Assembly: GCA_022652545.1 (NCBI GenBank)
Contig: JALCRM010000001.1
Coordinates: 310,001 to 374,000 of the forward strand
DNA length: 64,000 bases
Direction of reading: 5' to 3'
From: Lachnospiraceae bacterium
Lineage (GTDB): Bacteria > Bacillota > Clostridia > Lachnospirales > Lachnospiraceae
Within the stretch, counting starts at the first letter, position 1. Every line of letters starts with the position of its first letter. The notes under the pieces were generated by a model. The model did not search any database. It was not told the origin of the DNA and saw only the letters and a list, made by a program, of their open reading frames with translations. A program made the position numbers and the translations under genes. Shown one piece after another: positions 3,051 to 53,353 of the stretch.

Positions 3051-4439
3051 ATGAAGAAGCAGAAAGAAAAGTCACAGTTCCCGTTTTCAAAAAAAGTAAT
3101 CTGGAATTTTTCTTCGATCTCGAATGGATTTCTTTCGATCCTGTTGGGATACCTTAACTACTACCTGACGCAGAACGTATTGCTGTCGGCGGCTTCTGTG
3201 GGCATCGTTCTTATGGCATCCAAGATCTTCGATGGTTTTACGGATCTGATCGCCGGGTATATCATCGAACGCACGAGTTCAAAATTCGGGAAAGGCAGAC
3301 CGTGGTCGCTCTGTATCGCCATGCTCTGGCCCATAGTCATCCTTCTGTTTTCGGTCCCTTCCTTCTTCAGCACGACAGGAAAACTCGCATACGTATTCGT
3401 CTGCTATCTTGTCATTCAGTCGGTATTCCAGACACTGTATTCCTGTTCGGACACTGTTTATATGCTGCGTGCCGTGAAGGGTGAAAAGGACAGGGCGAAT
3501 ACCCTGGCGATCGGCGGCGTGATCATAACCTACAGCTGCACGATCCTTTCCATTCTCATGCCGGCAATGATCAAAATGTGGGGCAGCACCAGCAGCGGCT
3601 GGACACTGATCGCCGTACTGCTTGCCATCCCTTCGATCGCACTGCCTCTGATCAAGTTTTTTGTGATCAGGGAACAGCCGCTGGTCGATGAAAACGGAAA
3701 GCAGATCAAGGAAGACAAGCCCAGCATAAAACAGATGGTCAACCATGTTTTCCACAATAAATATGCTTTGATCCTGTTCGGAATGTGGCTGGTATTCCAG
3801 TTCGGACAGAACCTGAGCATCTTTGCACAGACCTATTTCTTTACATACAATATCGGAAACCTCGCGATCATGTCACTTGTTAGCATGACAGCTCTTGTCA
3901 CTCCGCTGATCACCCTGGCAATACCGCCTTTTCAGGCAAAATACGGCAAAACGAATGTGATCAGGGTCGGCATTGCGATCAACCTGGTCGGAAGTATCAT
4001 AAGAGCGATCTTCCCCACCAATATTCCGGTATTGATCGGCACCGCAGTGCTCCTGGCTGTCGGCATGCTTCCGCTCACCTATTTCTTCGGACTGTTCCTT
4101 ATGGACGCAATGGATTACGGAGAATGGAAATTAGGATATCGTGTGGAAAGCAGTTATACGGCGCTGCAGAGCGTAGGGCAGAAAGTCGCAGCCGGTCTGG
4201 CCTCAGGTTTTGGCGGGATCTTTATGGGAATGACAGGATTCGTCAGCGGCAGCAAAACACAGACCGCAGGCGCCACCAACGGGATTTATATCCTTTTCAT
4301 CATTGTTCCGATCGCTGTTGATGTGCTGGTGCTCCTGTTCCTCAGGGCATATGACCTCGACGGAAAGATCGATTCCATCAAAAAGGAACTGCTTGTAAAG
4401 CGCAGTGAAAAAGAAGCAGCCGCGGCGAAGACGGAATAA
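3051..4439 (+). CDS. GPH-type (glycoside-pentoside-hexuronide) sugar:cation symporter
   Basis: A 462-residue polytopic membrane protein of the MFS-related GPH family, which imports glycosides, pentosides or hexuronides with Na+ or H+. Family signs are the 'ASKIFDGFTDLIAGYI' block near residue 60, 'GKGRPWSL' after the third helix, and 'MDAMDYGEWKLGYR' near residue 360. About twelve hydrophobic segments are visible. The ATG at 3051 is chosen over an in-frame ATG at 2994 because GGAGG lies just before it. It heads the glycan operon that continues into GH2 after 33 bases, so it probably imports the oligosaccharide or glycoside that the cytoplasmic hydrolases then break down. Confidence 0.88.
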   Translation: MKKQKEKSQFPFSKKVIWNFSSISNGFLSILLGYLNYYLTQNVLLSAASVGIVLMASKIFDGFTDLIAGYIIERTSSKFGKGRPWSLCIAMLWPIVILLFSVPSFFSTTGKLAYVFVCYLVIQSVFQTLYSCSDTVYMLRAVKGEKDRANTLAIGGVIITYSCTILSILMPAMIKMWGSTSSGWTLIAVLLAIPSIALPLIKFFVIREQPLVDENGKQIKEDKPSIKQMVNHVFHNKYALILFGMWLVFQFGQNLSIFAQTYFFTYNIGNLAIMSLVSMTALVTPLITLAIPPFQAKYGKTNVIRVGIAINLVGSIIRAIFPTNIPVLIGTAVLLAVGMLPLTYFFGLFLMDAMDYGEWKLGYRVESSYTALQSVGQKVAAGLASGFGGIFMGMTGFVSGSKTQTAGATNGIYILFIIVPIAVDVLVLLFLRAYDLDGKIDSIKKELLVKRSEKEAAAAKTE

Positions 4440-4472
4440 GACCGGCTTGTACGGCCCGGCGGGGAGAATCTC

Positions 4473-6815
4473 ATGAAACAACTTTCATTTCAGGAAAACT
4501 GGACATTTGAGGATGGGAAGGGCGGATCGAAGAGGATCTCTCTGCCGCATGACGCAATGCTGGAAGCTGCCAGAAATGCAGAAGCTCCGTCAGGGAGCGG
4601 CGGAGCCTTCTTTATGGGCGGCCGCTATGAATATTCGAAGACATTCACGGCACCTGAGGAATGGAAGGATCAGGACGTGATCCTGGAATTTGAGGGGATC
4701 TATCCTTCCGCCAGGATAAGTCTGAACGGGATCGAGACGGGAAGCTGCAGCTACGGCTATACGGGGTACAGTTTCCTGCTGCACGATCTTGTCTATGGCG
4801 CGGAGAACACACTGAGAGTGACGGTCGACGACTCCCGGCAGCCGGACAGCCGCTGGTATTCCGGCGCAGGGATCTACAGACCCGTGTGGCTGTGGATCGG
4901 CGGCAGGACACATATTCTTCAGGATGGCATCCGTGTGACGACGCTCAGTACCGATCCGGCCAGGATAGCGGTCGATGCTGCATACACCGGCGGAGACGGA
5001 AAGACCGAAACGGAAGTTGAAATTGTCCGCTGCGGAGAAACAGTTGCCGAAGGCATGGGTGATCATCAGAAATTTGAGATAGATCATGCCGCACTTTGGG
5101 ACGCGGAGCACCCGGATCTTTACGAATGCAGGGTATTGCTGAAGCGGGACGGGGAAGTCCTCGATGAACAGGCCGTTTCATTCGGCATACGAAAACTGAG
5201 CTGGAATAAAGACGGGTTCTTTGTAAACGGGAAAAGAACACTATTACGGGGCGGATGCATTCATCACGACAACGGGATCCTCGGGGCAGAAACATACAGG
5301 GAGTCTGAATTCCGCCGTATCAGCCGCATGAGATCGGCAGGTTTCAATGCGGTCAGGTCAGCTCACAATCCGATGTGCAGGGGACTTCTGGAAGCCTGCG
5401 ATGTCCTCGGCATGTATGTGATGGACGAAGGCTGGGACATGTGGTATAAGCACAAAAGCCGCTATGACTATGCCTCCGGATTTGAAGAGCATTGTCTGGA
5501 AGATGCCGAGGCAATGGTCAGAAAAGACTTCAATCACCCCTGCGTAATCATGTATTCCATCGGGAACGAAGTCACGGAGCCGATGGAAGAAAAGGGCGTT
5601 GAAACGGGCAGAAAACTGGTCGGATCCTTTCACAGCAACGATCCCACAAGGCCGGTGACTGCAGGGATCAACCTGACGCTTCTGTATATGGCATCCATCG
5701 GAATCGACCTGACCGGCGGTTCCGGAAGCGAAAACAAAGAAAATGGCAACGGGATGGACAGCACTGCCTTCAACAAAATGATGTCTGAGGGCGGTGAACG
5801 TATGAACGCAGCGGCCGCGGGCGACGGCGCCGACAAGGTCTCATCGCCGATCCTGGATATCCTGGATATAGCCGGTTATAATTACGCATCTTCCAGGTAT
5901 GCCGCGGAGGGAGAAAAACATCCCGGCAGGATCGTGGTCGGCACGGAGACCTATTGCTATAAACTGGCTGATAACTGGCCTCTTGTAGAAAAATATCCGT
6001 ATCTGATCGGAGACTTCATGTGGACGGCGTGGGATTATCTGGGCGAAGCAGGAATAGGAGCCTGGACCTTCGAAAAGGACGGGGCAGCATTCCATAAAGG
6101 ATATCCTTGGCTGCTTGCGGATACGGGTGCTTTCGACATTCTCGGCAATGACAATGCCGAGGCCGGATACGCATCCGTGATCTGGAAAGCCCGCAAAATT
6201 CCCTATATCGGTGTGGCTCCGGTCAATCATCCGGAGGAAGAACCGGCGAAGGCCATGTGGCGCGGCTCAAACGCGCTGCCATACTGGTCATATGCGCACT
6301 GTGAAGGGAATCCGGCACAGATAGAGGTATTCGGAGCGGGTGCGGAAGCGGAGCTGTTCATCAACGGGAAAAGCGTCGGAAGACAGCAGCTGGACAAAAT
6401 GAAAACAGTATTTTCTGCAGCCTATACGCCGGGTGAATTAAAGGCAGTCCTGTATGATGCGGACGGTGCGTACATTTCGGAAAGTGCGCTGCGTTCGGCT
6501 GACCCGGGAACGAAGATAACGATACGCCGGGAGAAACAGTTTGTCCCCGAAGAAGGCATCCTGTACCTGGACATTGACCTGACAGGACAGAACGGCGAGA
6601 TCGAATGCAACGCGGATAGGACGCTCTCGGTAAATGTCGAAGGCGGAAGACTGCTGGGGTTCGGCAGCGCGGATCCGCGCACCGAAGATTCTTTCTGTAC
6701 CGGCAGTTATACGACCTGGTACGGGAGAAGCCTGGCTGCGGTTAAGAAGGATAAGGCACCTGTGACAGTGACCGTCAGGGGCGAGGGACTGAAGGATGCA
6801 AAGATCATTCTGTAA
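4473..6815 (+). CDS. Glycoside hydrolase family 2 protein (beta-galactosidase/beta-glucuronidase-like)
   Basis: A 780-residue GH2 enzyme. Order of parts: jelly-roll sugar-binding domain (about 1-150, with 'WYSGAGIYRPVWL'), immunoglobulin-like domain (about 155-245), TIM barrel (about 250-560) and C-terminal beta domains. The acid/base is the Glu of SIGNE (residue 366) and the nucleophile the Glu of GTETY (residue 492), both intact. 'SAHNPM' and 'DEGWDMW' are typical barrel motifs. No signal peptide is present, so it acts in the cytoplasm on imported substrate. GH2 covers galactosidase, glucuronidase and mannosidase activities and the substrate is not decided by sequence alone. The residues between SIGNE and GTETY include a Gly/Asn-rich insert near residues 410-460. 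Confidence 0.9.
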   Translation: MKQLSFQENWTFEDGKGGSKRISLPHDAMLEAARNAEAPSGSGGAFFMGGRYEYSKTFTAPEEWKDQDVILEFEGIYPSARISLNGIETGSCSYGYTGYSFLLHDLVYGAENTLRVTVDDSRQPDSRWYSGAGIYRPVWLWIGGRTHILQDGIRVTTLSTDPARIAVDAAYTGGDGKTETEVEIVRCGETVAEGMGDHQKFEIDHAALWDAEHPDLYECRVLLKRDGEVLDEQAVSFGIRKLSWNKDGFFVNGKRTLLRGGCIHHDNGILGAETYRESEFRRISRMRSAGFNAVRSAHNPMCRGLLEACDVLGMYVMDEGWDMWYKHKSRYDYASGFEEHCLEDAEAMVRKDFNHPCVIMYSIGNEVTEPMEEKGVETGRKLVGSFHSNDPTRPVTAGINLTLLYMASIGIDLTGGSGSENKENGNGMDSTAFNKMMSEGGERMNAAAAGDGADKVSSPILDILDIAGYNYASSRYAAEGEKHPGRIVVGTETYCYKLADNWPLVEKYPYLIGDFMWTAWDYLGEAGIGAWTFEKDGAAFHKGYPWLLADTGAFDILGNDNAEAGYASVIWKARKIPYIGVAPVNHPEEEPAKAMWRGSNALPYWSYAHCEGNPAQIEVFGAGAEAELFINGKSVGRQQLDKMKTVFSAAYTPGELKAVLYDADGAYISESALRSADPGTKITIRREKQFVPEEGILYLDIDLTGQNGEIECNADRTLSVNVEGGRLLGFGSADPRTEDSFCTGSYTTWYGRSLAAVKKDKAPVTVTVRGEGLKDAKIIL

Positions 6816-8607
6816 TCCGGTAAACGGAAACTACCGTTACCAGTTCAACAAAGAACCGATGTCTGACGGGAAGATAACAGTAAACCGTGAGGCGGCAGAT
6901 CCGACAGTGATCTTCTTCAAAGGCCGTTACTATCTGTTTGCATCTATGACGCTCAGCGTCTGGGTGTCGGATGACCTGGTCAGCTGGGAGGAGCACATGC
7001 TTCCGGAGGACCTGCCTCTTTACGGCTATGCCCCGGATGCGGAAGTCGCAGGGGAATATGTCCTTTTTACAGCTTCGGATGACAGGCACTGCAGCTTTTA
7101 CAGGACAAAGGATATCCTGAAAGGGCCGTATGAAGAGATCCCTGAGAATTTTACTTTCACGGATCCCGATCTGTTCAGGGATGAAGACGGACGTTTATAT
7201 TTTTACTGGGGGTGTTCGGATGAGATCCCGATCAGGGGCGTAGAACTGGATCCTGACAGCATGCTTCCGGTCGGACAGCCGGTCGATCTGGTCTGCAGTG
7301 ATCCCTTCAGCAGAGGATATGAGCGTCTCGGAGAGGACAATACCATACTGCCGGTATCCGAGGAAGAACTGGAACAGAGGTATTCCGGTTTTCTGAAGAC
7401 GCGCGGGAAGAAGGCAGAGGATGTACCGGAAGGAATGGCGAAAGTAATACGGGGGATACTGCGGCAGGCTCCTTACATAGAGGGAGTGTGGATGAGCAGG
7501 TTCGGGGAAAGATATTATCTCCAGTATGCTTTTGCGGGGACGCAGTACAACATATACGGCGATGGCGTGTTCGAGTCGGATCATCCGCTGGGACCGTTTC
7601 ATCCCGCGGTCAACAATCCGTACTCCTATAATCCGGGAGGCTTTTTTCCCGGAGCGGGGCACGGATCTACTTTTTCGGATCCGTATGGAAATTTATGGCA
7701 TGCCGGAACGATGCGGATCAGCGTAAACCATAACTTTGAGCGCCGCGTCGGAATATGGCCGGCGGGCATCGACCGCGACGGCGAGCTTTTCTGCAACCAG
7801 CGGTATGGCGACTGGCCGGTCTGTCCTGTAAAAGAAAAGAGAGACCCGTGGCAGAGACCCGAATGGATGCTGCTGAGCTTCGGCAAAAAAGCATCTGCTT
7901 CTTCCTTTGCCGCAGGGTACGGACCGGAAAAGGCCTGTGAAGAAGATGTGCGGACATGGTGGAAAGCCGCGGGCCCGGAAGATATTCCCTGGCTGCAGAT
8001 CGATCTGGGGAAAGTCTTTGAGGTCGCGCTGGTTCAGGTCAATTTTGCGGATGATAAGATCGATGCGGCTGCTCCCGAAGGCTTTCTGCACAGTGCCGAT
8101 ACCCGCTGTATCGAAAAGCGAAAGCTCCGTACCCGATGGAAACTGGAGGGGTCTGCGGACGGACAGCAGTACATCTGCCTGCAGGATAAAACGCAAGCTG
8201 TCACCGATCTGGCACATGACATCGTCGAACCGGACCGGCCATTGCCGCTCCGTTATCTGAAATTGTCTGTTTATGAAGTCCCCTATGGAAGGAAGCCATG
8301 TATCAGCGGTTTTCGGGTTTTTGGCAGAGGCCGCGGAAACCTGCCGGAGAAAGCCGCATTTCTTGCTGCCAGGACCTCGGAGATCGATATGCAGATTGAT
8401 ATAGAAGACGATGATGCAGCCGGTCATCTGGTCCTCTGGGGACATCGGCCGGAAAAACTATATCACAGCCGTATGCTGTATAATCATCATATAAGGATAG
8501 GCGCTTTGGTAAAAGGCACGGAATACTATGTAAGGGTGGATTCTTTCAGCGAGAACGGGATCACGGAAGGAGAAGTGCAGAAATTATGTGTGAAAAGGAT
8601 GCCATGA
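6796..8607 (+). CDS. Glycoside hydrolase family 43 protein with F5/8 type C-like domain
   Basis: A 603-residue protein. The N-terminal 340 residues have the five-bladed propeller pattern of GH43: Asp35 in 'AADPTVIF', the DPDLF aspartate near 125 and Glu229 in 'IEGVWMSR' fit the general base, pKa modulator and general acid. Residues about 370-515 look like a discoidin (F5/8 type C) sugar-binding module ('PWLQIDLGKVFEVALVQVNF'), and a fibronectin-III-like tail follows. The start overlaps the GH2 gene by 20 bases. There is no signal peptide, so it is probably cytoplasmic. GH43 enzymes remove arabinose, xylose or galactose residues; which one applies here is open. Confidence 0.85.
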   Translation: MQRSFCNPVNGNYRYQFNKEPMSDGKITVNREAADPTVIFFKGRYYLFASMTLSVWVSDDLVSWEEHMLPEDLPLYGYAPDAEVAGEYVLFTASDDRHCSFYRTKDILKGPYEEIPENFTFTDPDLFRDEDGRLYFYWGCSDEIPIRGVELDPDSMLPVGQPVDLVCSDPFSRGYERLGEDNTILPVSEEELEQRYSGFLKTRGKKAEDVPEGMAKVIRGILRQAPYIEGVWMSRFGERYYLQYAFAGTQYNIYGDGVFESDHPLGPFHPAVNNPYSYNPGGFFPGAGHGSTFSDPYGNLWHAGTMRISVNHNFERRVGIWPAGIDRDGELFCNQRYGDWPVCPVKEKRDPWQRPEWMLLSFGKKASASSFAAGYGPEKACEEDVRTWWKAAGPEDIPWLQIDLGKVFEVALVQVNFADDKIDAAAPEGFLHSADTRCIEKRKLRTRWKLEGSADGQQYICLQDKTQAVTDLAHDIVEPDRPLPLRYLKLSVYEVPYGRKPCISGFRVFGRGRGNLPEKAAFLAARTSEIDMQIDIEDDDAAGHLVLWGHRPEKLYHSRMLYNHHIRIGALVKGTEYYVRVDSFSENGITEGEVQKLCVKRMP

Positions 8608-10175
8608 GGTCCTCTGATGTGATACCGGAGATCAACGGCCGATGCGTGTTTTGCGACGGAAGTTACTGTCTGCCGGAGACGTTTCTGCTGGAACAGGGCG
8701 GGTTTGCCCCTTGGTGTGTGCAGGCTTTCTGTGAGAGAAGCGGAAGAAAGTATCGTTTTACGGAGATCGCCGGAAAGACGGCCGATATCAGGCTTGTCCG
8801 AAAATCCGGCATTCCGGAGGAAGCCTATCAGATCGATGTGAGCAGCAGCGGCATCTGTATCACCGCTTCTTCGGAAAAAGGAGTTGTCCTGGCGCTGACA
8901 ACGGTATCGGCTTTTCTTCGCAATGACACCGGACTTCGGTTTATGCAGCTGGAGGACAGTCCGCGTCTGGGATACCGCGGGCTGCTGCTCGACTGTGTAC
9001 GGCATTTCTTCACGGTGCAGGAAGTGAAAAAAGTCATTGAAGAAATAGCATCAGTGAAGATGAATGTCCTGCACTGGCATTTGTCTGATGATCAGGGATT
9101 CCGGATAGAATCAGGAATCTATCCGGGACTTCATGAACAGTGCGGGAAGGAATATTATTCGCAGCAGGAGATCCGGGAGGTCGTGGAATTTGCGAGGATA
9201 AGGGGAGTGGAGATCATACCGGAAATTGATATGCCGGGGCATACTACCTCGATCCTTGCAGCTTATCCCATGTATGGCTGTACAGGGCAAAAAGTGTCTC
9301 TCGCAGAGTCCGGAGGGATATACCCCATTGTGTTGTGCCCGGGGAAAGAAGAGACCTTTGTATTTCTGGAAAACCTGCTGGGAGAGGTCGCTTCTCTGTT
9401 TCCTTCGGAATGGTTCCATATCGGCGGAGATGAGACGCCGGACAGAGAATGGAAGATCTGCCCGGATTGCCAAAGGAGGATGGAAGAGGAGAAACTCACC
9501 GGCACACGGCAGCTGCAGGGCTATTTTACCGACCGGATCAGGGAGATCCTGAAGAAGTACGGCAAGAAAACGATCTGCTGGAACGACACCCTGGAGGCCG
9601 GAAATTTCAAATGGAATGCAGAGGATACGAGGATCCAGTTCTGGAGTGTCCAGTATGCGGATACAATGCTTGCCTATATCGGCAAAGGCGGGAAGTATAT
9701 TTATTCCGATATGTTTGAACTGTATTTTGACTATCCCTGCGGCATGACGTCGGAAAAAAGAGTCAGGCACTGCATACCGAAGATCCGCGGGACAGCCTGC
9801 ACAGCCGGCGGCATGGCAGGGATGGAATGCTGCCTGTGGACAGAGCATGTTGAAAATAACGAAGCACTTGAAAAACGGCTGTTTCCGAGACTTTATGCCT
9901 TTGCGGAAAACGCATGGACCGGCATCGCGGACGACGGCGATTTCCAAAGAAAGCTTGCCGCTTATATCCTGCATGCAAAGAAACGCGGGATCTCCTGTCT
10001 GACCGTCGATGAGGCAAATCCGCAGGGAGAAGAGCGGAAGAGGGAGATCATGGAGTATACGTACATTATGAAATCGTCCATGTCCGACGAGGTACGGAAA
10101 ACGACCATGGAATTCTCAAAGCCCGGCAAGGAATTCAATGACCGCTTTATGGAAAAGTTTTTCGGGGCGGAATGA
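8604..10175 (+). CDS. Glycoside hydrolase family 20 beta-N-acetylhexosaminidase
   Basis: A GH20 protein of 523 residues from the ATG at 8604, which overlaps the GH43 stop by four bases and has AAAAGGA before it; an in-frame ATG at 8586 is the alternative. The N-terminal 130 residues form the GH20b-type accessory domain, followed by a TIM barrel from 'YRGLLLDCVRHF'. Catalytic Asp276-Glu277 of 'HIGGDE' are present, as are 'LHWHLSDDQGFRIE' and 'EIDMPGH'. The family cleaves terminal GlcNAc or GalNAc by substrate-assisted catalysis. No signal peptide is seen. Released hexosamine could be phosphorylated and fed to NagB encoded upstream. Confidence 0.93.
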   Translation: MRSSDVIPEINGRCVFCDGSYCLPETFLLEQGGFAPWCVQAFCERSGRKYRFTEIAGKTADIRLVRKSGIPEEAYQIDVSSSGICITASSEKGVVLALTTVSAFLRNDTGLRFMQLEDSPRLGYRGLLLDCVRHFFTVQEVKKVIEEIASVKMNVLHWHLSDDQGFRIESGIYPGLHEQCGKEYYSQQEIREVVEFARIRGVEIIPEIDMPGHTTSILAAYPMYGCTGQKVSLAESGGIYPIVLCPGKEETFVFLENLLGEVASLFPSEWFHIGGDETPDREWKICPDCQRRMEEEKLTGTRQLQGYFTDRIREILKKYGKKTICWNDTLEAGNFKWNAEDTRIQFWSVQYADTMLAYIGKGGKYIYSDMFELYFDYPCGMTSEKRVRHCIPKIRGTACTAGGMAGMECCLWTEHVENNEALEKRLFPRLYAFAENAWTGIADDGDFQRKLAAYILHAKKRGISCLTVDEANPQGEERKREIMEYTYIMKSSMSDEVRKTTMEFSKPGKEFNDRFMEKFFGAE

Positions 10176-10197: not shown

Positions 10198-12669
10198 ATG
10201 GCCAGGATCCCGGAACTTGATTTCAAAATCGTGAAGGCAGCGCATTTGCAGGAGGATCTCAGCATGGAGATGATCCTTCTGTATATCGTGGACGGAAAAG
10301 CGCGTATCAGCGTCGGCGGCAACCGGATGAATTTCGGTGAGAACGGGATTCTGCTGATCGAGCCGGGCTTTCCCTATGAGATCGATTCTGCAGGGAAGAA
10401 TGAAGTTACGATTGCGGAAGCAAGGTATTCTCCGGAACTTTTTTCCCGAGCCACCGGCTCGGAGAATATTTTACTCTGCTGCAACAGTGAAACAGACCGG
10501 ATCCACTCCTATGAGGATCTGCGTACGATCTTCTGTGAGCTCATCAGATACTGGATCCATCGCCGGAACAGTATGTCCTGTCTCACGGCGAGCGTTCTTC
10601 TGAAACTGCTGGACTGTCTTCTTGAGAATCATGCAACGCATGAAGAGGGAGATGCCCCCGAAAGAAGGAGTGAGGATTTCAGGACCAGGGAGATCATCCG
10701 GTATGTACTGGAGAACTATCGAAGCGAAATCAGTCTTTCTTCCCTGGCGGAAACGATGTATGTTTCGACATCCACACTTTCCAGGATCTATAAAAAACAT
10801 ACGGGGATCTATTTTGCTGATTTTGTCGATCAGGTGCGGCTGCATTCTGCCATGCTGCAGCTGATGTATACAGACAGCAGTCTGACCAGGATCGCCCTGG
10901 AAAACGGCTTCTCAGGGGCATCTGTTTTCAGCCGGAAATTCCGGATGGCGTATGGCTGTTCACCCTCGGATTACCGCAGCAGGCATCGTGACGCAGCGGA
11001 GACGGAGCAGCACAGGAAAGAGCAGCAGGATAATGCACTGCTGCAGGAACTGGCGGAACGCCCGGCTTTTACCGGATCCGGGGACGAAGCCCGGGAACTG
11101 CCGGAACAGCGGGTGACCGCAGAGGGACCGGAAGAGCGGCAGGAGGTGCTGTTTTCCGGGAAGGACGGGGGGAAGCCGTTTACGCAGAAGTGGGATGAAG
11201 TCATCAATATAGGATCATTTCACGATGCGACGCTGGCAAATATCCAGTATCATATCCTGTATCTGCAGGAAAACCTGCACTTCAGATACGTCAGGTTATG
11301 GAATGTGTTTTCCCGGAAACTGCAGATCACAGACGAAAATGCGGCGGGGACCTATAACTTCAGCATGGTGGACCAGGTCCTCGATTTCTTCACGGAACAC
11401 CACCTGAATGTCTATCTGGACATCGGACGGCGTCCCGACACCATCGTGCGCTCCGGCAGTGAGATCGTACATAAGGAAGAAGAGTACATTGTCTTTGAGG
11501 ACAGAGGGTCCTGGGAAGACATGCTGCGTTCCTTCATTCAGCATATTATCCGCCGCTATGGCAGGGAAGTCGTCTCGGGGTGGATCTTCGAAGCATCCAG
11601 GGACGGTATACATGACAGTGAGGAGGCCTGCTATTATTTTGACGGCGGAAAGCCCGGAGAATATGCAGCCGCCTATGGCTTTTTCTGCCGGTTGATGCGG
11701 GAGGAACTGCCCGAGGCCAGGATCGCCGCGATCGGGGCGGTGATTTACTGGGACTGGGATTATCTACGCTGTTTCCTGGAGCAGTGCAGACAGGATAAAC
11801 TGCTTCCGGATTATGTGTCGATCATACTGTATCCTTACCGTCCGTATCGGGAAGGCAAAACCGTAAGCAAATGGATCGCGGCCGATGCGGGCTCGGAAAG
11901 GGAGCAGGTCGGAATGATCCATGAACTGCTGGACAACGTCGGCATTCCGGATATGAAAGTATGCGTAAGCGAGTGGAACCATACGATCTCCGACCGGAAT
12001 ATCCTGAACGACAGTTCGTTCCGTGCGGCTTATTTTGCCGAGAAGCTGGGAGAGACCCGGGACAGCGTCGATCTCGTCTGCATTATGACAGGTTCTGACT
12101 GGATCAGCAGTTACGCGGATTTCTGCGGTATAGCAGACGGCGGTATCGGACTGCTGACCAAGGATACGATAGGAAAACCGGGATTCTTTGCACTGCAGCT
12201 GATGGAGCATATGGGCGATAACGTCATCCTGGAAAAAGAGCATGTTCTGATCACGCGGAAAAAAGACCGGGATTATTTTATCCTGTGTTCAAACCTGAAG
12301 TGGTTCAGCCAGCGCTATTTCCTATCCGGAGAGAATATCCGGCTGGAGGATGATCCGCTGAATATTCCCGGTGAGGTTTTTTCAGACCTGAAGCCTCTGA
12401 AAATCACATTCACGGTTGCCGATATGGAAGCCGGAAGGGAATACAACGTCAGGAAAAGGCGCATACGGGACGGAGAAGGAAGTATTCTGGGAGAATGGAA
12501 AAAACTGGGGTATGACAGGGAACTGACGAGCCAGGATATCCGGTATCTGCGGACTTCCTGCTATCCGAGGATGGAACTGGTGAGGCAGACGGCGGATCCG
12601 GAGAAAGGTGTTTTGTCTGTTTCCGTGACGCTGGACGCCAATGAAGTCGTCCTGATCCATATCTATTAA
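10198..12669 (+). CDS. AraC-type regulator fused to a GH39-like domain
   Basis: An 823-residue fusion. Residues 1-150 are a cupin-like AraC sensor ('LLYIVDGKARISVGGNRM'), about 175-265 a two-HTH AraC DNA-binding domain ending 'YGCSPSDYRSRH', then a charged linker, and from about 320 a GH39 (beta-xylosidase-like) TIM barrel and beta tail. The GH39 nucleophile region is kept (Glu592 in VSEWN). The acid/base motif normally WNEP reads SRDG (467-470), so Asp469 stands in for the usual Glu. The gene is the last of the glycan operon, 22 bases after GH20. The hydrolase part may serve as a ligand sensor more than as an enzyme; that is inference. Confidence 0.85.
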   Translation: MARIPELDFKIVKAAHLQEDLSMEMILLYIVDGKARISVGGNRMNFGENGILLIEPGFPYEIDSAGKNEVTIAEARYSPELFSRATGSENILLCCNSETDRIHSYEDLRTIFCELIRYWIHRRNSMSCLTASVLLKLLDCLLENHATHEEGDAPERRSEDFRTREIIRYVLENYRSEISLSSLAETMYVSTSTLSRIYKKHTGIYFADFVDQVRLHSAMLQLMYTDSSLTRIALENGFSGASVFSRKFRMAYGCSPSDYRSRHRDAAETEQHRKEQQDNALLQELAERPAFTGSGDEARELPEQRVTAEGPEERQEVLFSGKDGGKPFTQKWDEVINIGSFHDATLANIQYHILYLQENLHFRYVRLWNVFSRKLQITDENAAGTYNFSMVDQVLDFFTEHHLNVYLDIGRRPDTIVRSGSEIVHKEEEYIVFEDRGSWEDMLRSFIQHIIRRYGREVVSGWIFEASRDGIHDSEEACYYFDGGKPGEYAAAYGFFCRLMREELPEARIAAIGAVIYWDWDYLRCFLEQCRQDKLLPDYVSIILYPYRPYREGKTVSKWIAADAGSEREQVGMIHELLDNVGIPDMKVCVSEWNHTISDRNILNDSSFRAAYFAEKLGETRDSVDLVCIMTGSDWISSYADFCGIADGGIGLLTKDTIGKPGFFALQLMEHMGDNVILEKEHVLITRKKDRDYFILCSNLKWFSQRYFLSGENIRLEDDPLNIPGEVFSDLKPLKITFTVADMEAGREYNVRKRRIRDGEGSILGEWKKLGYDRELTSQDIRYLRTSCYPRMELVRQTADPEKGVLSVSVTLDANEVVLIHIY

Positions 12670-12740
12670 TGGCAGAGGCCTGTTATGGCAGCCGTCTGAT
12701 ATAAAAAGAATATACCCTGCAATGCCGGCAGGATCGGGGA

Positions 12741-12779
12741 CCTGCAACAAATGAAGCTCGTTTGTTGCAGGATTTTTTA
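12741..12779 (+). terminator. Rho-independent terminator
   Basis: A perfect 11-bp stem, CCTGCAACAAA (12741-12751) with TTTGTTGCAGG (12761-12771), a 9-base loop and then ATTTTTTAT. It lies 70 bases after the AraC-GH39 stop and ends the glycan operon. Confidence 0.92.
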
Positions 12780-12954
12780 TGCCCTGAAAGCAGATCGCAA
12801 CAAACAAAGCGTTTTACGGAATCATTGGAAAGCCCGGGTGAAAAAAGAAGTTTAGTATCATATTCAGAAACAGGCAGGACGGTCCGGACGCCCTGGGAAG
12901 AAAAGCATGAGTGCAGGCATATCCTGAATTCTCAAGGCATAAGGAAGGAAAAAC

Positions 12955-14325
12955 ATGGATAACTTTAAGAGAGCTTCAAAGGCAGCCGTCATCTGTTATG
13001 GCTTCGGCGATCTGGCATCCCAGTTCGTGTGGACATTTGTGGGTTCCTATCTTTCCATTTTCTATACGGATGTCGTTGGCCTCGGCCCCGGCGTGATCGC
13101 GGCGATCATGCTGATCGCGAGGATCTGGGACGCCGTCAACGATCCGATGATGGGTGCGATCGCGGAGAATTCCAAAAGCAGATTCGGGCGGTTCCGCCCC
13201 TGGATCGCATTCGGATGTCCCGCACTGGCGGTGTTTGCGGTCCTGACATTCACAAATCCCTTCAGCGGCAGCACTGCATCCGGTGCCGTATGGGCAGGCT
13301 TTACATACATTGCAGCGGGCATGCTCTATACACTGGTCAACATTCCGTACGGTGCGCTTTCGGGTGTTATGTCGGAAGATGCCAACCAGCGCAATGTCAT
13401 CAATACATCCAGAAATATCGGCATGAATATCGGCATGATCATTGTGAATGCTCTTTCCGCCGGCCTGATGCTGAAGTTTTCAGGTGCCGGTGCGCAGGTC
13501 GCCACCGGACACGGATATATGATGACGGCATTGATCTATTCGATCATTTCCATCCCGCTGTTCCTGATCGTTTTCTTTACATCCAGGGAAGTCGTCGGCC
13601 GTACAGCAGCCCAGGAAGCGGCAAAGTTCTCGTTTGTCGAGACCATGCGCAATCTTTTCACCAATAAATATCTTATGATCGTATTCGCGATCATGGCAGT
13701 ACAGATGACGGCTTTCATGGGAAGGATCGCGGTGACGGCATTCTACGTGATCTATTGCCTGAACTCTTTTACACTGATCGCGCTGATCATGACGATCCCC
13801 TCCATCGGTGCGGTGATAGGTTCCCTGTTCGTCCCGTTTTTTGCCAAAAAATACGGGAAGAGGAATGTCCTGATGATTTCCATGCTTATCCAGGCAGTGG
13901 GTCTGCTCATCATCTGGCTGGCGCCGTTCGACAATATTCCCATGGTCATCGCCGGCGATATCGTCTTCGGAGTATTTAATGTAGGCTTCCCGATGACACT
14001 TTCCATGGTGGCGGATTCCGTGGATTATATGGAACTCAAAAAGGGCGTTCGTACAGACGGCACAGCATATGCGACCTACGGACTGGCCACCAAGCTGGGC
14101 AATGCCATCGGCGGTGCAGTCGGAGTTCCGCTTCTTTTTATGGTCGGTTACAAGGCCAACGCCGCTCAGTCCGCGGAGACCATGCAGGGGATCAATACCA
14201 TCGTAAACCTGATTCCTGCGATCCTGTTTATCGCTGCAGCGCTGATCTGTCTCTTCTGGAATATGACTGACCATGACGCAGACGAGATCCGCACGCAGCT
14301 CCGGGTAAAGCGCGGAGAACAGTAA
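12955..14325 (+). CDS. GPH-type sugar or glycoside:cation symporter
   Basis: A 456-residue, twelve-helix transporter of the same family as the one at 3051, with 'ARIWDAVNDPMMGAIAE' near residue 55, 'GRFRPWIAFG' near 75 and 'ADSVDYMELKKGVRTDG' near 355. The ATG follows AAGGAAGGAAAAAC. It begins the transcription unit that continues into the isomerase-like and beta-subunit genes and the flavodoxin reductase, ending at the terminator at 16.9 kb. In known gut C-glycoside catabolic loci a GPH symporter is a common partner of the deglycosidase subunits, so this protein may import a glycoside. Substrate is inferred only from neighbours. Confidence 0.88.
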   Translation: MDNFKRASKAAVICYGFGDLASQFVWTFVGSYLSIFYTDVVGLGPGVIAAIMLIARIWDAVNDPMMGAIAENSKSRFGRFRPWIAFGCPALAVFAVLTFTNPFSGSTASGAVWAGFTYIAAGMLYTLVNIPYGALSGVMSEDANQRNVINTSRNIGMNIGMIIVNALSAGLMLKFSGAGAQVATGHGYMMTALIYSIISIPLFLIVFFTSREVVGRTAAQEAAKFSFVETMRNLFTNKYLMIVFAIMAVQMTAFMGRIAVTAFYVIYCLNSFTLIALIMTIPSIGAVIGSLFVPFFAKKYGKRNVLMISMLIQAVGLLIIWLAPFDNIPMVIAGDIVFGVFNVGFPMTLSMVADSVDYMELKKGVRTDGTAYATYGLATKLGNAIGGAVGVPLLFMVGYKANAAQSAETMQGINTIVNLIPAILFIAAALICLFWNMTDHDADEIRTQLRVKRGEQ

Positions 14326-14380
14326 CGGCCTTTTCAGGGCGTCATTAGAAGGTATGTTGAAAGAGAGCGGGGAGAAGACT

Positions 14381-15394
14381 ATGTCAGACATCAAAACATG
14401 TGTCAGCCTGTACAGTTTGCAGGATGAGTATCTGAATAAACGCATGTCACTTTCGGATATCATGCATTATGTAAAGGACTGCGGGGCGCAGGGGGTGGAG
14501 ATCCTGCCGGACCAGATGATCAAAGGCGCGCCGGAAGCGTCACCTGAGACGATATCGGCATGGAACGCGCTCATTCGTGAAACAGGTCTTACACCGGTCA
14601 TAGCAGATGTGTTCCTGAACACAAATCTTTATAAGAACCGGACACTTACGCACAGGGAATGCATCGGCCTTCTCGCAAAAGAAATCGCGGAAGCCCATGA
14701 AATGGGGATCCACCTGATCCGTTTGGTATCCATGGTTCCCTACTGGGTACTGGAGCCGCTGATGCCTGTCTGCGAGAAATACGATGTGGCGCTTGCCATC
14801 GAAGTGCACGCGGCCATGGCGTTCGATGTACAGGCCACCAGGGAATTCCTGGATGAAGTAAAGAGGCTGGACAGCAGATATGCGGGTGTTGTGATCGATA
14901 CCGGCATCTTCTGCCGGCGGTTCCCGAGGGTGGTGCGTGCTTATGAGACGCAGAACGGCACCAGTCCGGAGGTGTTCGACTATATCGACACCTTATTTGA
15001 AGCGGGCACCGATCTGCATGCCGTACTCCGTAAAAATGACTATAAGTATCCGAATGAACTGCAGACGGCCTGTCGGACGGAGCATGACAGAATGTTCGTT
15101 CCGCTGTGCGACGGGTACGAGAATCTTCCTTTCTCGGTAATGGACGAATATATGCCATATATCAGGCACTTCCATCTGAAGATGTTTGAAATGACACCTG
15201 AAGGACCGGAATATTCGATGGATTACAAAGGATTGCTGGAATATCTTGACGCAAAGAATTTCCACGGCTACGTCTCCACGGAATACGAAGGAAACCGGTT
15301 CACACTTCCCGGTCATCCGATGCAGGAGAAGCAGCAGGTGGCGATGCAGCAGGCATATCTCCGGAAATGCCTGCAGGAAAAACACGGCGCCTGA
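14381..15394 (+). CDS. Sugar phosphate isomerase/epimerase family protein, candidate C-glycoside deglycosidase alpha subunit
   Basis: A 337-residue TIM barrel of the xylose-isomerase-like AP endonuclease 2 superfamily. Likely metal ligands are Glu141 in 'AIEVHA', Asp173 in 'VVIDTG', His265 in 'HFHLK' and Glu301 in 'STEYEG'. The ATG at 14381 is chosen because GGGGAGA precedes it; an in-frame ATG at 14354 has no properly spaced site. The next gene, 22 bases on, encodes a small beta protein of the type that pairs with such barrels in C-glycoside deglycosidases, which cleave the C-C bond of 3-oxo-C-glycosides. General isomerase is certain at fold level; the deglycosidase role is inferred from the pairing. 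Confidence 0.8.
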   Translation: MSDIKTCVSLYSLQDEYLNKRMSLSDIMHYVKDCGAQGVEILPDQMIKGAPEASPETISAWNALIRETGLTPVIADVFLNTNLYKNRTLTHRECIGLLAKEIAEAHEMGIHLIRLVSMVPYWVLEPLMPVCEKYDVALAIEVHAAMAFDVQATREFLDEVKRLDSRYAGVVIDTGIFCRRFPRVVRAYETQNGTSPEVFDYIDTLFEAGTDLHAVLRKNDYKYPNELQTACRTEHDRMFVPLCDGYENLPFSVMDEYMPYIRHFHLKMFEMTPEGPEYSMDYKGLLEYLDAKNFHGYVSTEYEGNRFTLPGHPMQEKQQVAMQQAYLRKCLQEKHGA

Positions 15395-15416
15395 GAGGCG
15401 GGAGGAAGCGGCGAGA

Positions 15417-15809
15417 ATGTTTGACAATAATGTGTTCATAAAGGACAGCTGCAGAAATGTGGAAGAAAACGGCAGAACGACAGGCTATGAACTCCAGACA
15501 CTGATCACTTATTACAGGGGCATTCCGCTCTCCATGCTGGAATATGTAAAAATTTCGGCGGACGGAACAGAGGAAGATCCGGAGAACATCCAGGTATCGC
15601 TGGACCGGATCGACTGGTTTACCCTGAAGGAAGCCGAAACGGTCACGGACTATAAATGGGAATATGGTGACCCGATGTATATAAGAGTCATGAAGGACGG
15701 CGGCCTGCCTGCGGGAAAGCATCGTGTGAGGCTGACGGTGGCGACAAGGACAGCTTATATACCGGTTCCGCTGGAAGGGATCAGGGAACGGGACGTAGTG
15801 ATAAGCTGA
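15417..15809 (+). CDS. Candidate C-glycoside deglycosidase beta subunit (DUF6379-type)
   Basis: A 130-residue all-beta protein starting MFDNN with GGAGG upstream. It shows the pattern I associate with the small subunit of C-glycoside deglycosidases (family long listed as DUF6379): 'TGYELQTLITYYRGIPLSMLE' near residues 23-43, 'WFTLKEAETVTDYKWEYGD' near 60-80, and a closing 'AYIPVPLEG' near 118. In characterised enzymes this subunit forms a beta sandwich that completes the active site of the TIM-barrel alpha subunit. Length and the adjacent position after a TIM barrel both fit. No experimental link exists here, and some family pairs may act on O-linked 3-oxo-glycosides. Confidence 0.75.
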   Translation: MFDNNVFIKDSCRNVEENGRTTGYELQTLITYYRGIPLSMLEYVKISADGTEEDPENIQVSLDRIDWFTLKEAETVTDYKWEYGDPMYIRVMKDGGLPAGKHRVRLTVATRTAYIPVPLEGIRERDVVIS

Positions 15810-15878
15810 AGACACAGAGCAGGTTCACAGGCAGTACAGATCAGGGGACCGTAAGTTTACCCCGCGGAGGAAAAACAG

Positions 15879-16844
15879 ATGGCACAGAAAAAGGTACTTG
15901 GTCTTTCGTTCGGACGGAAAAACAAAAATACGGATATTATGGTAAAAGCTGCGCTGATGGAATGCGAAAAAGCCGGCTGCGACGTGCAGTTCATCCATGT
16001 GGATGACCTCGATATCAAACCCTGCACAGGCTGTATTTCCTGTGTTGTCGGGATGACGACCGGGCGGGGGAAGGGAGGCTGCCCGATCAAGGATGATCTC
16101 CATATCCTGGACGAAGCGATCATGGAATGCGACGCGCTGATCGCCGGATCTCCGACTTATGTCATGAGTCCCACCGGCCGTTTCAAGAGCGTCTGCGACA
16201 GGCTCGGACCTTCCCATGACATCACATTCCGCAAAGCCAGGTATGAAGAGGGCCTCGCAGCCGGTCAGCCTGCGGAACAGCTGCCCGATGTCCGCAGCTT
16301 TAAGAAAAGAGTCGGGGCTCTTGTTTCCGTCGGCGGTGCCATGACGAAAAACTGGCTGTCGTTCATGCTGCCGACCATGTATGAGATCACGATGTCCATG
16401 GGCATCGATGTGATCGACATGCATGAATATTACGGCGCCATGGCCTGCGAACATGTTGTCGGGAACGAGACGGAAATGGAGCGGATGCGTCAGACAGGAC
16501 GGAATATAGCCGCTGCGCTTGTCTCTGAAACGGAAGAGGAACGGACAAAGTGGCGCGGGGATACCGAAGGCGTCTGCCCTGTCTGCCACTGCAGTCTGCT
16601 GTCGGTCCCGCAGAACAGAGCGGCAGATCAGGTGGAATGCCCGGTCTGCGGAATTACCGGCAGCCTGGTGGTAAAAGACGGCAAAATACAAGCGGAATTT
16701 TCAGAGGCGCAGAAAAAGCGGTCAAGACTGCATTGGGACGGAAAACTGGAGCATTCCACGGAAATCAAGACAAAAGCCGTCGGATCCGGACAGATCCCCG
16801 ATCTGAAGGAGCGCCTGGAGCCGTATATCAATTACCTGCAGTAA
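15879..16844 (+). CDS. NAD(P)H-dependent FMN reductase / flavodoxin-fold iron-sulfur flavoprotein-like protein
   Basis: A 321-residue protein. The first 210 residues have the flavodoxin-like fold of the FMN reductase/Isf family: 'LGLSFGRKNKNTDIMVKAAL' at the start, 'CTGCISCV' at about 47-54 (close-set cysteines as in iron-sulfur flavoproteins), and 'AGSPTYVMSPTGRFKSVCDR'. The C-terminal part has two CPVC motifs (about 232 and 254) that look like a zinc ribbon. It is the last gene of the unit with the deglycosidase-like pair and is 69 bases downstream of it, followed by a terminator. A redox role on an aromatic or keto intermediate of the same pathway is plausible but unproven. Confidence 0.82.
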   Translation: MAQKKVLGLSFGRKNKNTDIMVKAALMECEKAGCDVQFIHVDDLDIKPCTGCISCVVGMTTGRGKGGCPIKDDLHILDEAIMECDALIAGSPTYVMSPTGRFKSVCDRLGPSHDITFRKARYEEGLAAGQPAEQLPDVRSFKKRVGALVSVGGAMTKNWLSFMLPTMYEITMSMGIDVIDMHEYYGAMACEHVVGNETEMERMRQTGRNIAAALVSETEEERTKWRGDTEGVCPVCHCSLLSVPQNRAADQVECPVCGITGSLVVKDGKIQAEFSEAQKKRSRLHWDGKLEHSTEIKTKAVGSGQIPDLKERLEPYINYLQ

Positions 16845-16874
16845 ATGCGAGGAAGCAGCTATAACAATGTGCAG

Positions 16875-16902
16875 AGGCGAGTGCAAAGCACCCGCCTTTT
16901 TG
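16875..16902 (+). terminator. Rho-independent terminator
   Basis: AGGCGAGTGC (16875-16884), loop AAA, GCACCCGCCT (16888-16897), then a T run. One mismatch in the stem. It separates the flavodoxin gene from the TetR promoter. Confidence 0.88.
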
Positions 16903-16925
16903 CGTACGGCAGCATGGGAAGCTGT

Positions 16926-36356: not shown

Positions 36357-36557
36357 ACGGCTCTTTTATATTCAAAACATTTCGAATGCATATGGAAATA
36401 GTCTGACACATCTGCTATATTGTTCTCACGCGCCTTTTCGAAAAGCGTATGGCGCAGTGCCTTTTCGGCGGCACGTCTGTAACGCATCTTTTGCTTTTTC
36501 TTTCGCTTCTTACTGCCGCAGGTTCACTTCACATCTGTTTATTCCGGAGGTATTTCC

Positions 36558-37058
36558 ATGAAATGCAATGTTTTTCCCTGTGAAAGTTTTTCATTCCCGG
36601 TCGACAGGGACGCTGTCGGCAGCATCCGCAATCCGAAGCAGCAGGAAAGGATCGCCGACCTGCTGGAGGATGTAGGGAAGCGTATGGAAGGGCGTTACGC
36701 TGAAAAACTCAGGCTCGAGAGCATTGCGGCGGAGGTGGGCGTCAGTTCCTGGTATCTTTGCAAAGTGATCAGGAAATACTGCGGTTCCGGCTTTTCGGAT
36801 ATTCTGACAGGAATACGGATCGCACATGCGGAAGAACTGCTGCGGAACGGGGAAGTGAAGCCTTCGCTTGTCGGGCAGTTCGTGGGGTACGAAGAGACCG
36901 GACAGTTTATCAAGGTATTCCACCGGATGACAGGACTTACGCCGCGCCAGTACAGGGATGGGCTGGCGATTGAAAGGAGCCTTGCGCTGGCTGAAACGGA
37001 AGGCCGGTATCTGTGCAGTGATGATACGGAAACGTACCCCGGACCATCTGTGTTATAA
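36558..37058 (+). CDS. Short AraC-type helix-turn-helix protein
   Basis: A 166-residue protein with ATG after GGAGGTATTTCC. Residues about 35-137 form an AraC DNA-binding domain: first HTH 'LRLESIAAEVGVSSWYLCKVI', second 'KPSLVGQFVGYEETGQFIKVF', closing 'TGLTPRQYRDG'. There is no room for a sensor domain; residues 1-30 and the 25-residue tail match nothing I know. It is 33 bases upstream of the cytidylate-kinase-like gene, so it may regulate that gene or be co-transcribed with it. Target genes cannot be named. Confidence 0.82.
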   Translation: MKCNVFPCESFSFPVDRDAVGSIRNPKQQERIADLLEDVGKRMEGRYAEKLRLESIAAEVGVSSWYLCKVIRKYCGSGFSDILTGIRIAHAEELLRNGEVKPSLVGQFVGYEETGQFIKVFHRMTGLTPRQYRDGLAIERSLALAETEGRYLCSDDTETYPGPSVL

Positions 37059-37091
37059 TATGACAAATCAGGATCTTCAGGAGATGTCATA

Positions 37092-37988
37092 ATGAATATT
37101 TCGATCACAGGCAATCTTGGGGCGGGCAAATCCAGTGTGTGTCATGAACTGGCTGAAAAAGGCTATGAGATCATCTCGGCGGGCACACTGTTCCGGCAGA
37201 TCGCAGTCGAACATCACATGTCGGTGGAAGAACTCAACAGAAAAGCGGCAGAAGAGGTCAGTAAAAGCGGAAAATCCTCGATCGACGATATGCTGGATCA
37301 GCGCACGGCGCAGCTGAATGCCATGAAGGACGGCGCCGTGTTCGATTCCAGACTGGCATGGAATTTTGCGAAGGGCAGCTACAGGGTGTTCCTGACGGTA
37401 GACCTGGACGAGTCGGCGGCCAGGGTATTCGGAGATCAGAACAGAAGAGCGTCGGAAGCTTTTGAAACGCTGGAACAATGCAGGGCTTCCATCATCAACA
37501 GACAGGGACTTGAAAAAACAAGGTTCGCAAAGCTATACGGAATCAATTATTATGACATGTCCAACTACGATCTCGTGATAGACTGTACGCATGTCAGCCC
37601 GTCGGAGGCTGCCGACGAGATCGAGCGCTGTTACAAAAGCCGGGAGAGCGGCAGGGTCGAACTGAACCCGAGAAGTATCTATCCGACACATGCTTCCGAG
37701 GGACGGCCGGAAGATGCAGTTCCCGATGCAGCCGTACGGGTCAGCCCGCGATGCTGCGGTTGGTTTGCGGCGGAGGGAGAGCAGGGGCTTCTGCATGCCC
37801 TGCACGAAAGAAAGCGGTTTATTCGTGTAGTGGTCGATCCTGATGCGGCGGTAAGCGTGCTTACGCCCGGAGAATACAGGGTCTATGAGAAAGCCGGCGG
37901 TTTCCGGTACAGAAGGTATCCAGTACCGGAGGACGCGGCGCAGAAGACGATCTATGATTTTCCGCCGGTATCCGGAAATTCGAGGTGA
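37092..37988 (+). CDS. Cytidylate-kinase-like P-loop protein with C-terminal extension
   Basis: A 298-residue protein. Residues 1-180 resemble the cytidylate kinase/AAA_33-type nucleotide kinases: P-loop 'ITGNLGAGKSS' at 5-15, 'ISAGTLFRQIA' near 30-40, and a lid-like 'DQNRRASEAFETLEQ' near 117-131. From about residue 185 comes a 110-residue extension ('LNPRSIYPTHASEG', 'FIRVVVDPDAAVSVLTPGEYRVYE') that I do not recognise. True (d)CMP kinases are about 220 residues and lack this part. The role as a nucleotide kinase is plausible for the first part only. It follows a small AraC-like gene by 33 bases. Confidence 0.65.
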   Translation: MNISITGNLGAGKSSVCHELAEKGYEIISAGTLFRQIAVEHHMSVEELNRKAAEEVSKSGKSSIDDMLDQRTAQLNAMKDGAVFDSRLAWNFAKGSYRVFLTVDLDESAARVFGDQNRRASEAFETLEQCRASIINRQGLEKTRFAKLYGINYYDMSNYDLVIDCTHVSPSEAADEIERCYKSRESGRVELNPRSIYPTHASEGRPEDAVPDAAVRVSPRCCGWFAAEGEQGLLHALHERKRFIRVVVDPDAAVSVLTPGEYRVYEKAGGFRYRRYPVPEDAAQKTIYDFPPVSGNSR

Positions 37989-52172: not shown

Positions 52173-52997
52173 TCAGATCTCTGTGTAGTGCCGGCCGCAG
52201 TGTATAACGCCGCGGCTTTTTTCGGCTTTCTCCAGTTCCTCGTGCCGTTCGTGCGAACGCAGCAGGGACACGGTCCTGTTGTATGCACCAAAGGAGAGGC
52301 TGAACAGGGAATTCAGCTGCCCGACCGTTTCCTTGGTCGTATGGTGGTAGTATTCACCGCCTGCACGGAAAGCTTCTTTATGGTTCAGGACGCAGCGTAT
52401 GAGATCGTCTTCGTTCCGTATCTCTTCAGAAATCTCTGTCCATCCCATGGCTGCCGAACCGATGCGATGCGAGTCAGAGCCGCCAAAACAGGGTTTGGAA
52501 AGTTCCCTTGCCAGAATGGCTGCGTCCGCGTTGCAATGCTGATATTCGCAGGAATTGAAGGTCTCGATAAAGTCGAACTGGTCCGCCATGAACGCGTTGT
52601 GCCTGCCTGCAGCGGCGTGTGTAAAACTCATGAAAGGCTCTCCGCAGGGATGCGCGGGTCCGAGAATACCGCCGCGGCCGTGGACGAATTCGATAAGTTC
52701 GGCGACCTTCATGCCCCTGATCTCCAGAACGTGCGGAGATTTTGCATCCGTCGGCATGACAACGAGAATGTGACCGCCGTCGCGCGTATCATATTCGATG
52801 CCGCGAAGCACGATAAAATCCGGGCTGAAGCCGTCCCGCACCTCTTTTTCATAATAGCGCCAGCCGCTGTAGGTGTCGTGGTCGGTGATCATGAGCCCGT
52901 CATAGCCTTTTTCCCTGCACAATTCTATGTTTTTACGAAGCGGAAGTGTGGAGTCCACGGAACCTTCCGCTATGTGGCAATGCATGTCAAATTTCAT
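52173..52997 (-). CDS. PHP-domain metal-dependent phosphoesterase-like protein
   Basis: A 274-residue protein with the polymerase and histidinol phosphatase (PHP) fold. 'MKFDMHCHIAEGSVDS' at the start gives the first metal-binding HCH set, 'GLMITDHDTYSGW' near 34-46 the DHD motif, 'LRGIEYDTRDGGHILV' near 67-82 the next ligands, and 'FGGSDSHRIG' near 170 the last. The ATG at 52997 is favoured over 53009 since GAGG lies six bases upstream. Family members hydrolyse phosphoesters, including 3',5'-bisphosphates and nucleotides; the substrate is not known. It lies downstream of rpsT but behind a terminator. Confidence 0.85.
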   Translation of the reverse strand: MKFDMHCHIAEGSVDSTLPLRKNIELCREKGYDGLMITDHDTYSGWRYYEKEVRDGFSPDFIVLRGIEYDTRDGGHILVVMPTDAKSPHVLEIRGMKVAELIEFVHGRGGILGPAHPCGEPFMSFTHAAAGRHNAFMADQFDFIETFNSCEYQHCNADAAILARELSKPCFGGSDSHRIGSAAMGWTEISEEIRNEDDLIRCVLNHKEAFRAGGEYYHHTTKETVGQLNSLFSLSFGAYNRTVSLLRSHERHEELEKAEKSRGVIHCGRHYTEI

Positions 52998-53015
52998 GAT
53001 TCGCCTCATAATGCG

Positions 53016-53052
53016 AAAAAAGACCGGGCCGAAAGAGGGTCCGGTCCGGTCT
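53016..53052 (-). terminator. Rho-independent terminator of rpsT
   Basis: On the minus strand AGACCGGACC (53052-53043) pairs with GGCCCGGTCT (53030-53021) with one mismatch, then TTTTTT. It lies 23 bases after the rpsT stop. Confidence 0.85.
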
Positions 53053-53074
53053 GAATATCAATTGCGGCAGTAGA

Positions 53075-53353
53075 TCAGGCTTTTTCTTCCTTACCGACCT
53101 TTGCTACTTTCTTGCTGAGGCGGGAAACCTTGCGGGAAGCAGTGTTCTTCTTGATGACACCCTTCGAAGCAGCTTTCCTGATCGTGGCTTCGGCATCCTT
53201 CATGGCAGCTTTGGAAGCTTCCTGATCCTTGCCTTCCACGGCGGCGTTGACTTTCTTGACGACGGTCTTGACGCCCGTCTTCACGCCTTTATTTGCCTCG
53301 CCCTTTTTGGCGTTCGTGATAACTCTCTTTTTGGCAGATTTGATGTTTGCCAT
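53075..53353 (-). CDS. rpsT: 30S ribosomal protein S20
   Basis: A 92-residue, strongly basic protein starting 'MANIKSAKKRVITNAKK', the standard S20 N-terminus; it binds 16S rRNA early in small-subunit assembly. The open frame reaches 34 residues further upstream, but the ATG at 53353 with GAAAGGGG before it gives the normal family length. The promoter at 53.5 kb leaves a leader of about 130 bases, long enough for autoregulation as known for S20 in other bacteria, although no specific structure was identified. Confidence 0.96.
   Translation of the reverse strand: MANIKSAKKRVITNAKKGEANKGVKTGVKTVVKKVNAAVEGKDQEASKAAMKDAEATIRKAASKGVIKKNTASRKVSRLSKKVAKVGKEEKA

Follow-up and report, generated by a model that had tools for sequence, protein, structure and literature searches.

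Flavonoid C-glycosides resist ordinary glycosidases. Among the closest described systems for cleaving them is DgpABC of strain PUE (PuCGD; PDB 7bvr, 7exz, 7drd and 7xrf), in which, according to passages of PMC11170127, the oxidase gene dgpA lies within the same operon as the C-glycoside deglycosidase (CGD) genes; passages of PMC8398226 add that this cluster holds further accessory genes of unclear function. The PMC11170127 passages also describe Catenibacillus genomes that hold several dgpBC clusters, a separately encoded dgpA and a flavone reductase (FLR), C. decagia having six dgpBC clusters together with DfgAB homologues. FLR itself has been solved from Flavonifractor plautii (PDB 7D38–7D3B). 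Here we describe a four-gene unit at 12955–16844 of a 64,000-nucleotide stretch of DNA from a Lachnospiraceae bacterium with relatives among gut species (the window: positions 310001–374000 of contig C1 in genome G000, an assembly of 2.67 Mb in 27 contigs that is 81% complete). With a probability of roughly 0.6, we read it as a C-glycoside utilisation operon that provides import, C–C cleavage and flavone reduction, the 3-oxidation being supplied in trans. The kind of enzyme, a CGD, is already known; what is new here is a recurring FLR-family partner in the CGD operon.

The genes lie on the plus strand in the order GPH symporter, CGD alpha, CGD beta and flavoprotein, with intergenic gaps of 55, 22 and 69 bases. 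An initial annotation, made from the sequence alone, had recognised a GPH symporter, a TIM-barrel protein, a small beta protein of 130 residues beginning 22 bases after the barrel, and a flavoprotein; all four genes are where it placed them, and both the gap and the length are as it gave them. Unlike in strain PUE, no dgpA lies in the unit. As in Catenibacillus, the oxidase is encoded apart and the genome also holds FLR, with nine copies of the CGD beta subunit (CGDB) gene compared with the six clusters of C. decagia. In the present genome FLR stands in the operon, an arrangement that neither the passages of PMC11170127 for C. decagia nor those of PMC7862272 for F. plautii mention.

The alpha–beta pair belongs to the CGD family

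The longest open reading frame for the alpha subunit begins at 14354, but the start at 14381 has the better ribosome-binding site and gives a TIM-barrel protein of 337 residues (14381–15394, plus strand). Its AlphaFold2 model (pLDDT 92) superimposes in Foldseek on DgpC1 of P581a (PDB 9m3b) with a TM score of 0.95 and a deviation of 1.2 Å, followed by the CGDs of Deinococcus, strain PUE and W974-1 and by AgCarB2-C2, and the sequence matches 9m3b_A at E 9e-117 with 53% identity. The adjoining beta subunit (15417–15809, plus strand) scores 119 bits against PF19906, ‘C-glycoside deglycosidase beta subunit’ (cut-off 27.6), covering model positions 1–112 of 112, and matches 9m3b_B at E 3e-43; the small protein is thus CGDB, a family that carries the name DUF6379 in several PDB records. 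Both subunits find their best match in a single solved complex, P581a DgpB1/DgpC1, released on 2026-03-04, for which no paper was found in the literature searched. The strain PUE enzyme has the same fold and, by its paper’s description, the same metal set and base, with an alpha subunit only 22% identical to that of the window.

Seven residues (E141, D173, H265, K267, E301, H143 and E303, numbered from the start at 14381) are invariant in all 19 aligned alpha subunits, nine from the genome itself and ten from named relatives. The initial annotation had singled out four of them, E141, D173, H265 and E301, as a plausible metal set, and these positions hold. By motif spacing, AgCGD2 itself being outside the alignment, the seven equate with the AgCGD2 metal ligands E147, D179, H269, K271 and E305 and its base–water pair H149 and E307, as Mori et al. 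2021 (PMC8563793) describe them; the same paper reports that mutating these residues lowers the activity of PuCGD and MiCGD. Because of the beta family score, the alpha fold match and the seven invariant residues, the pair is assigned to the CGD family, which bears out the earlier proposal that the two genes encode such an enzyme. We infer that the pair would cleave C-glycosides, with flavone C-glucosides, for example isoorientin or orientin, as the likeliest substrates.

An FLR-family flavoprotein in the operon

The last gene of the unit (15879–16844, plus strand) encodes a flavoprotein of 321 residues (FMN_red 61.4 bits, cut-off 24) that we propose to be an aglycone ene-reductase. Among PDB sequences, only 7d38, the FLR of F. 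plautii, matches it below E 0.01 (8e-33), in a near full-length alignment (residues 5–299 of 321 against chain positions 2–278 of 310) with about 30% identity. The flavodoxin fold and the C-terminal extension of FLR are both present. FLR residues D103, G106, W149, H271 and I275, which hold FMN or apigenin according to passages of PMC7862272, align (read by hand) with D107, G110, W159, H292 and I296; mutating G106, W149, H271 or I275 cuts FLR activity (same source). D107, W159, H292 and I296 are invariant in 8/8 aligned flavoproteins, and G110 is kept in the seven operon flavoproteins and replaced by Cys in a paralogue on contig C8. By sequence and modelled fold, the protein belongs with flavone reductase.

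One alternative appears quite improbable: that the protein works as a quinone or FMN reductase of general function, shielding the cell from phenolic products, and is linked to the CGD by shared exposure instead of a pathway step. NQO1, NQO2, WrbA and azoreductases do come next in the Foldseek comparison, but 7d38 comes first and far ahead of them (7e-17 versus 6e-9), and the C-terminal extension keeps the FLR cysteine motif as far as the alignment reaches. Two more FLR-like flavoproteins occur on contig C8 of the same genome, at 52405–53280 (39% identical to that of the window) and 36532–37401 (38%).

Recurrence of the FLR partner

We examined 13 kb of DNA at each of ten named loci whose alpha subunits are 46–84% identical to that of the window. 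The order alpha–beta–FLR is kept in six of them (L013–L017 and L021), with record titles naming Eubacterium, Lachnospiraceae, Clostridia, Oscillospiraceae or Clostridiales. A search of 397 genomes from the same family, the present one included, found alpha in 11 and FLR in 17 (both at E <= 1e-60), and every alpha genome also has FLR. In nine of these 11 the two genes lie within 1.2 kb of each other; FLR is 75 kb away in G172 and on another contig in G329. Two gene orders occur among the nine close cases, FLR following beta in six and preceding alpha in three (G187, G215 and G249). In these three genomes, FLR proteins 71–76% identical accompany alpha subunits only 44–48% identical, as if one reductase served CGDs of differing specificity. 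The alpha gene of the G215 locus (L030, contig C41, 49126–50139) contains one in-frame TAA in the assembly.

CGDB exceeds its cut-off in 34 of the 397 genomes, a 35th passing the E-value limit only, and these 34 include every one of the 17 FLR genomes (hypergeometric probability 8e-21 if genomes are independent, which they are not fully, though the 17 span 16 genera). The distance from FLR to CGDB is at most 2.2 kb in 10 of the 17 and at most 16 kb in 14. No paper that connects FLR with a CGD operon was found in the literature searched, which did not extend to supplements or to most subscription journals, so the link may already be known.

The 3-oxidase is probably encoded on another contig

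No Gfo/Idh/MocA 3-oxidase gene lies within the unit, and only 55 bases separate the symporter from alpha, which rules out a local DgpA remnant. The initial annotation had allowed either that the oxidase is encoded elsewhere or that the flavoprotein marks a variant pathway. A Gfo/Idh/MocA gene on contig C8 (99266–100333) has an E value of 1e-138 to DgpA2 of P581a, a protein whose structure was solved with isoorientin, and judged by this match it probably encodes the oxidase for the unit. A DgpA2-type gene is present in 11/11 alpha genomes; 15/16 genomes searched have it, G017 being the exception, and in several genomes it adjoins FLR or the alpha–beta pair. Another C8 gene (74971–76236), with E 1e-30 to the strain PUE DgpA and 31% identity to the operon-type DgpA, was retained as second choice only.

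In some relatives this same operon includes DgpA. In L013 the genes encode an AraC-GH39 protein, a GPH symporter, DgpA (E 4e-160 to its strain PUE counterpart), alpha, beta, FLR, an isomerase-like TIM barrel, an oxidoreductase of the DgpA2 type, a ROK-like kinase and a further Gfo/Idh/MocA protein, the kinase and sugar-isomerase names being readings of the sequence and not the result of a family search. Among ten further loci from other genomes (L024–L033, taken with about 1.5 kb of flank on each side), four (L024–L027) carry, immediately 5′ of alpha, a DgpA 88–98% identical to the L013 protein, and have FLR after beta. Since DgpA and FLR coexist in L013 and L024–L027, FLR does not replace the oxidase. 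The first suggestion of the initial annotation is supported by the C8 gene and by these relatives, and the second stands only in that an FLR-like partner marks the operon; as a substitute for the oxidase, the flavoprotein is ruled out.

CGD copies elsewhere in the genome and genus

Besides the pair in the window, the genome holds eight CGDB genes, each with an adjoining alpha, in an island on contig C8 (59–106 kb, within the stretch 55979–106424; L009–L012), and the DgpA2-type oxidase gene sits inside this island. The closest of these pairs is 50% (alpha) and 60% (beta) identical to that of the window. Also encoded there are four Gfo/Idh/MocA proteins, two carboxylesterases, a regulator of the AraC-GH39 type and what by eye is an ABC-type transporter. 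In a search of 117 genomes, the present one among them, eight had any CGDB, and genomes of a single genus range from 0 to 33 CGDB genes. The upper end is G017 (same genus; 2.6 Mb, 14 contigs), where 32 of 33 CGDB matches are accompanied by a same-strand alpha no more than 600 bases away and four open frames of 474–489 residues contain both alpha and beta, which suggests alpha–beta fusions.

Evidence against the pathway and alternative explanations

Several observations weigh against the proposed reading of the unit. (i) The flavoprotein was modelled with moderate confidence (pLDDT 63.5), its alignment stops at FLR residue 278, before the tail contacts T279, K282, T305 and P307, and its identity to the characterised FLR is so low that its substrate is not assured; passages of PMC8398226 report that a second F. 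plautii FLR homologue did not reduce apigenin. (ii) FLR was not found within the 13 kb of four of the ten named loci (L018–L020 and L022, from two Trichococcus, Sedimentibacter and Bacillus), and no close FLR was found in 17 of the 34 CGDB genomes. (iii) None of the eight CGD pairs on C8 has a close FLR beside it, the nearest FLR-like gene (39%) lying about 6 kb before the first. (iv) Of the eight CGDB genomes among those 117, only the present one has an intact close FLR; the best match in G017 reaches 49% identity but is interrupted by an in-frame stop, and the remaining six gave none or weak matches (E 1e-8 or worse). (v) No close operon-type DgpA (best 31%) and no phloretin hydrolase match were found in the genome, which is 81% complete; phloretin hydrolase matches occur in 6 of 18 CGDB genomes searched. 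(vi) The strain PUE enzyme acts by elimination on O-glucosides too (passages of PMC10628242). FLR accompanies the CGD type found in the window and a few more, but is not linked to every CGD.

One doubt concerns what the flavoprotein reduces. The sugar product of cleavage, 2-hydroxy-3-keto-glucal, is itself an enone, and the conserved FLR beside divergent alpha subunits in G187, G215 and G249 follows something common to different CGDs. Together with the low identity to F. plautii FLR, this allows that C-glycoside cleavage is correctly assigned and that the flavoprotein acts on the enone sugar or on an aglycone other than a flavone (a xanthone or chromone, for example), which we consider rather unlikely. 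Loci L018–L020 and L022 would be expected to yield that sugar too, yet no FLR was found in their locus DNA, the part of these genomes that was searched, so the freed aglycone would be the simplest FLR target. The 17 CGDB genomes without a close FLR also weigh against this alternative. In addition, the flavone-contacting residues H271 and I275 of FLR are kept.

A different doubt concerns the bond that is cleaved. The alpha–beta pair could act mainly as a beta-eliminase on 3-keto O-glucosides of plant phenols, with C-glycoside cleavage minor or absent. Both bond types are cleaved by the strain PUE enzyme, O-glucosides are the commoner plant glycosides (passages of PMC10628242), and the 33 CGDB copies of G017 exceed what known C-glycosides seem to need. 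The same passages describe an O-glycoside beta-eliminase of A. tumefaciens that has the Mn site and 3-keto chemistry in common with CGDs, without sequence similarity to them. We nevertheless regard this explanation as unlikely: several of the closest solved relatives bear the title C-glucosyl deglycosidase, the companion oxidase on C8 matches an isoorientin-bound structure, and ordinary glycosidases can serve O-glucosides.

Boundaries, transport and regulation of the unit

The unit is bounded on both sides by terminator-like hairpins. The downstream one (16866–16906, plus strand; −18.7 kcal/mol, z −3.9, with a U tract) confirms the terminator that the initial annotation had placed after the flavoprotein: none of 200 shuffles was equally stable. 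It was not among the matches of a consensus terminator scan, for which a stem mismatch is the likely reason. The upstream hairpin (12741–12771, plus strand; a 14-pair stem followed by a T run), which the initial annotation did not mention, lies 3′ of an AraC-type gene, and the region 12735–12782 has a folding energy of −20.6 kcal/mol (z −5.5). Between 9900 and 17100, a promoter scan gave 6 matches compared with 6.5 in shuffles. A TetR-type gene 3′ of the unit stands behind a promoter-like site (11/12 matches) and is probably separate from the operon. dN/dS was of little weight: in 11 gene comparisons, six gave no dS because of saturation and five gave values of 0.06–0.12 at dS 1.6–2.2.

The first gene of the unit, the GPH-family symporter (12955–14325, plus strand; TIGR00792 354 bits, cut-off 231), is the presumed glycoside importer, and homologues 73–74% identical lie 5′ of alpha in L013, L014 and L021. 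Upstream of it, a gene at 10198–12669 (plus strand) encodes an AraC-type regulator with a C-terminal GH39-like domain (HTH_18 76 bits, Glyco_hydro_39 103 bits), which is probably the controller of the unit. Homologues (35–41% identical, that of L014 partial) precede alpha in L013–L017 and L021, and the same architecture recurs on C8 (80961–83384) directly before the closest paralogous CGD pair. The GH39 domain of these two CGD-adjacent regulators may be a glycosidase-derived sensor. Further upstream, window positions 3051–10175 hold a neighbouring glycan unit with a second MFS_2/GPH-type transporter, GH2, GH43 with F5/8 C, and GH20.

Proposed pathway and implications

In the pathway that we propose, the AraC-GH39 protein probably senses the glycoside, the GPH symporter would import it, and the DgpA2-type oxidase encoded on C8 would oxidise the sugar at C3. 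The alpha–beta enzyme, with Mn predicted at E141, D173, H265, K267 and E301 and with H143 as the base, would then release the aglycone and 2-hydroxy-3-keto-glucal by beta-elimination of the glycosidic bond. Finally, the FLR-like flavoprotein would reduce the flavone so released at its C2=C3 bond, turning luteolin, for instance, into eriodictyol. This would take away a product of the cleavage and may draw that slow reaction forward. Overall, the analysis suggests that C-glycoside cleavage and flavone reduction are coupled steps. A wider view, which we put forward tentatively and hold to be possible though doubtful, is that C-deglycosylation is joined to flavone reduction in a single coupled module assembled more than once, in which a distinct FLR clade removes the aglycone and so pulls slow C–C cleavage, and that CGD arsenals (nine pairs here, 33 beta genes in the same-genus genome) define a niche of C-glycoside specialists.

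Bacteria that cleave flavonoid C-glycosides decide what reaches the host. The operon names a testable substrate class and provides a partner gene for operons with accessory genes of unclear function. If the proposed pathway is correct, free flavone would not build up, and flavanones or their breakdown products would be released instead.

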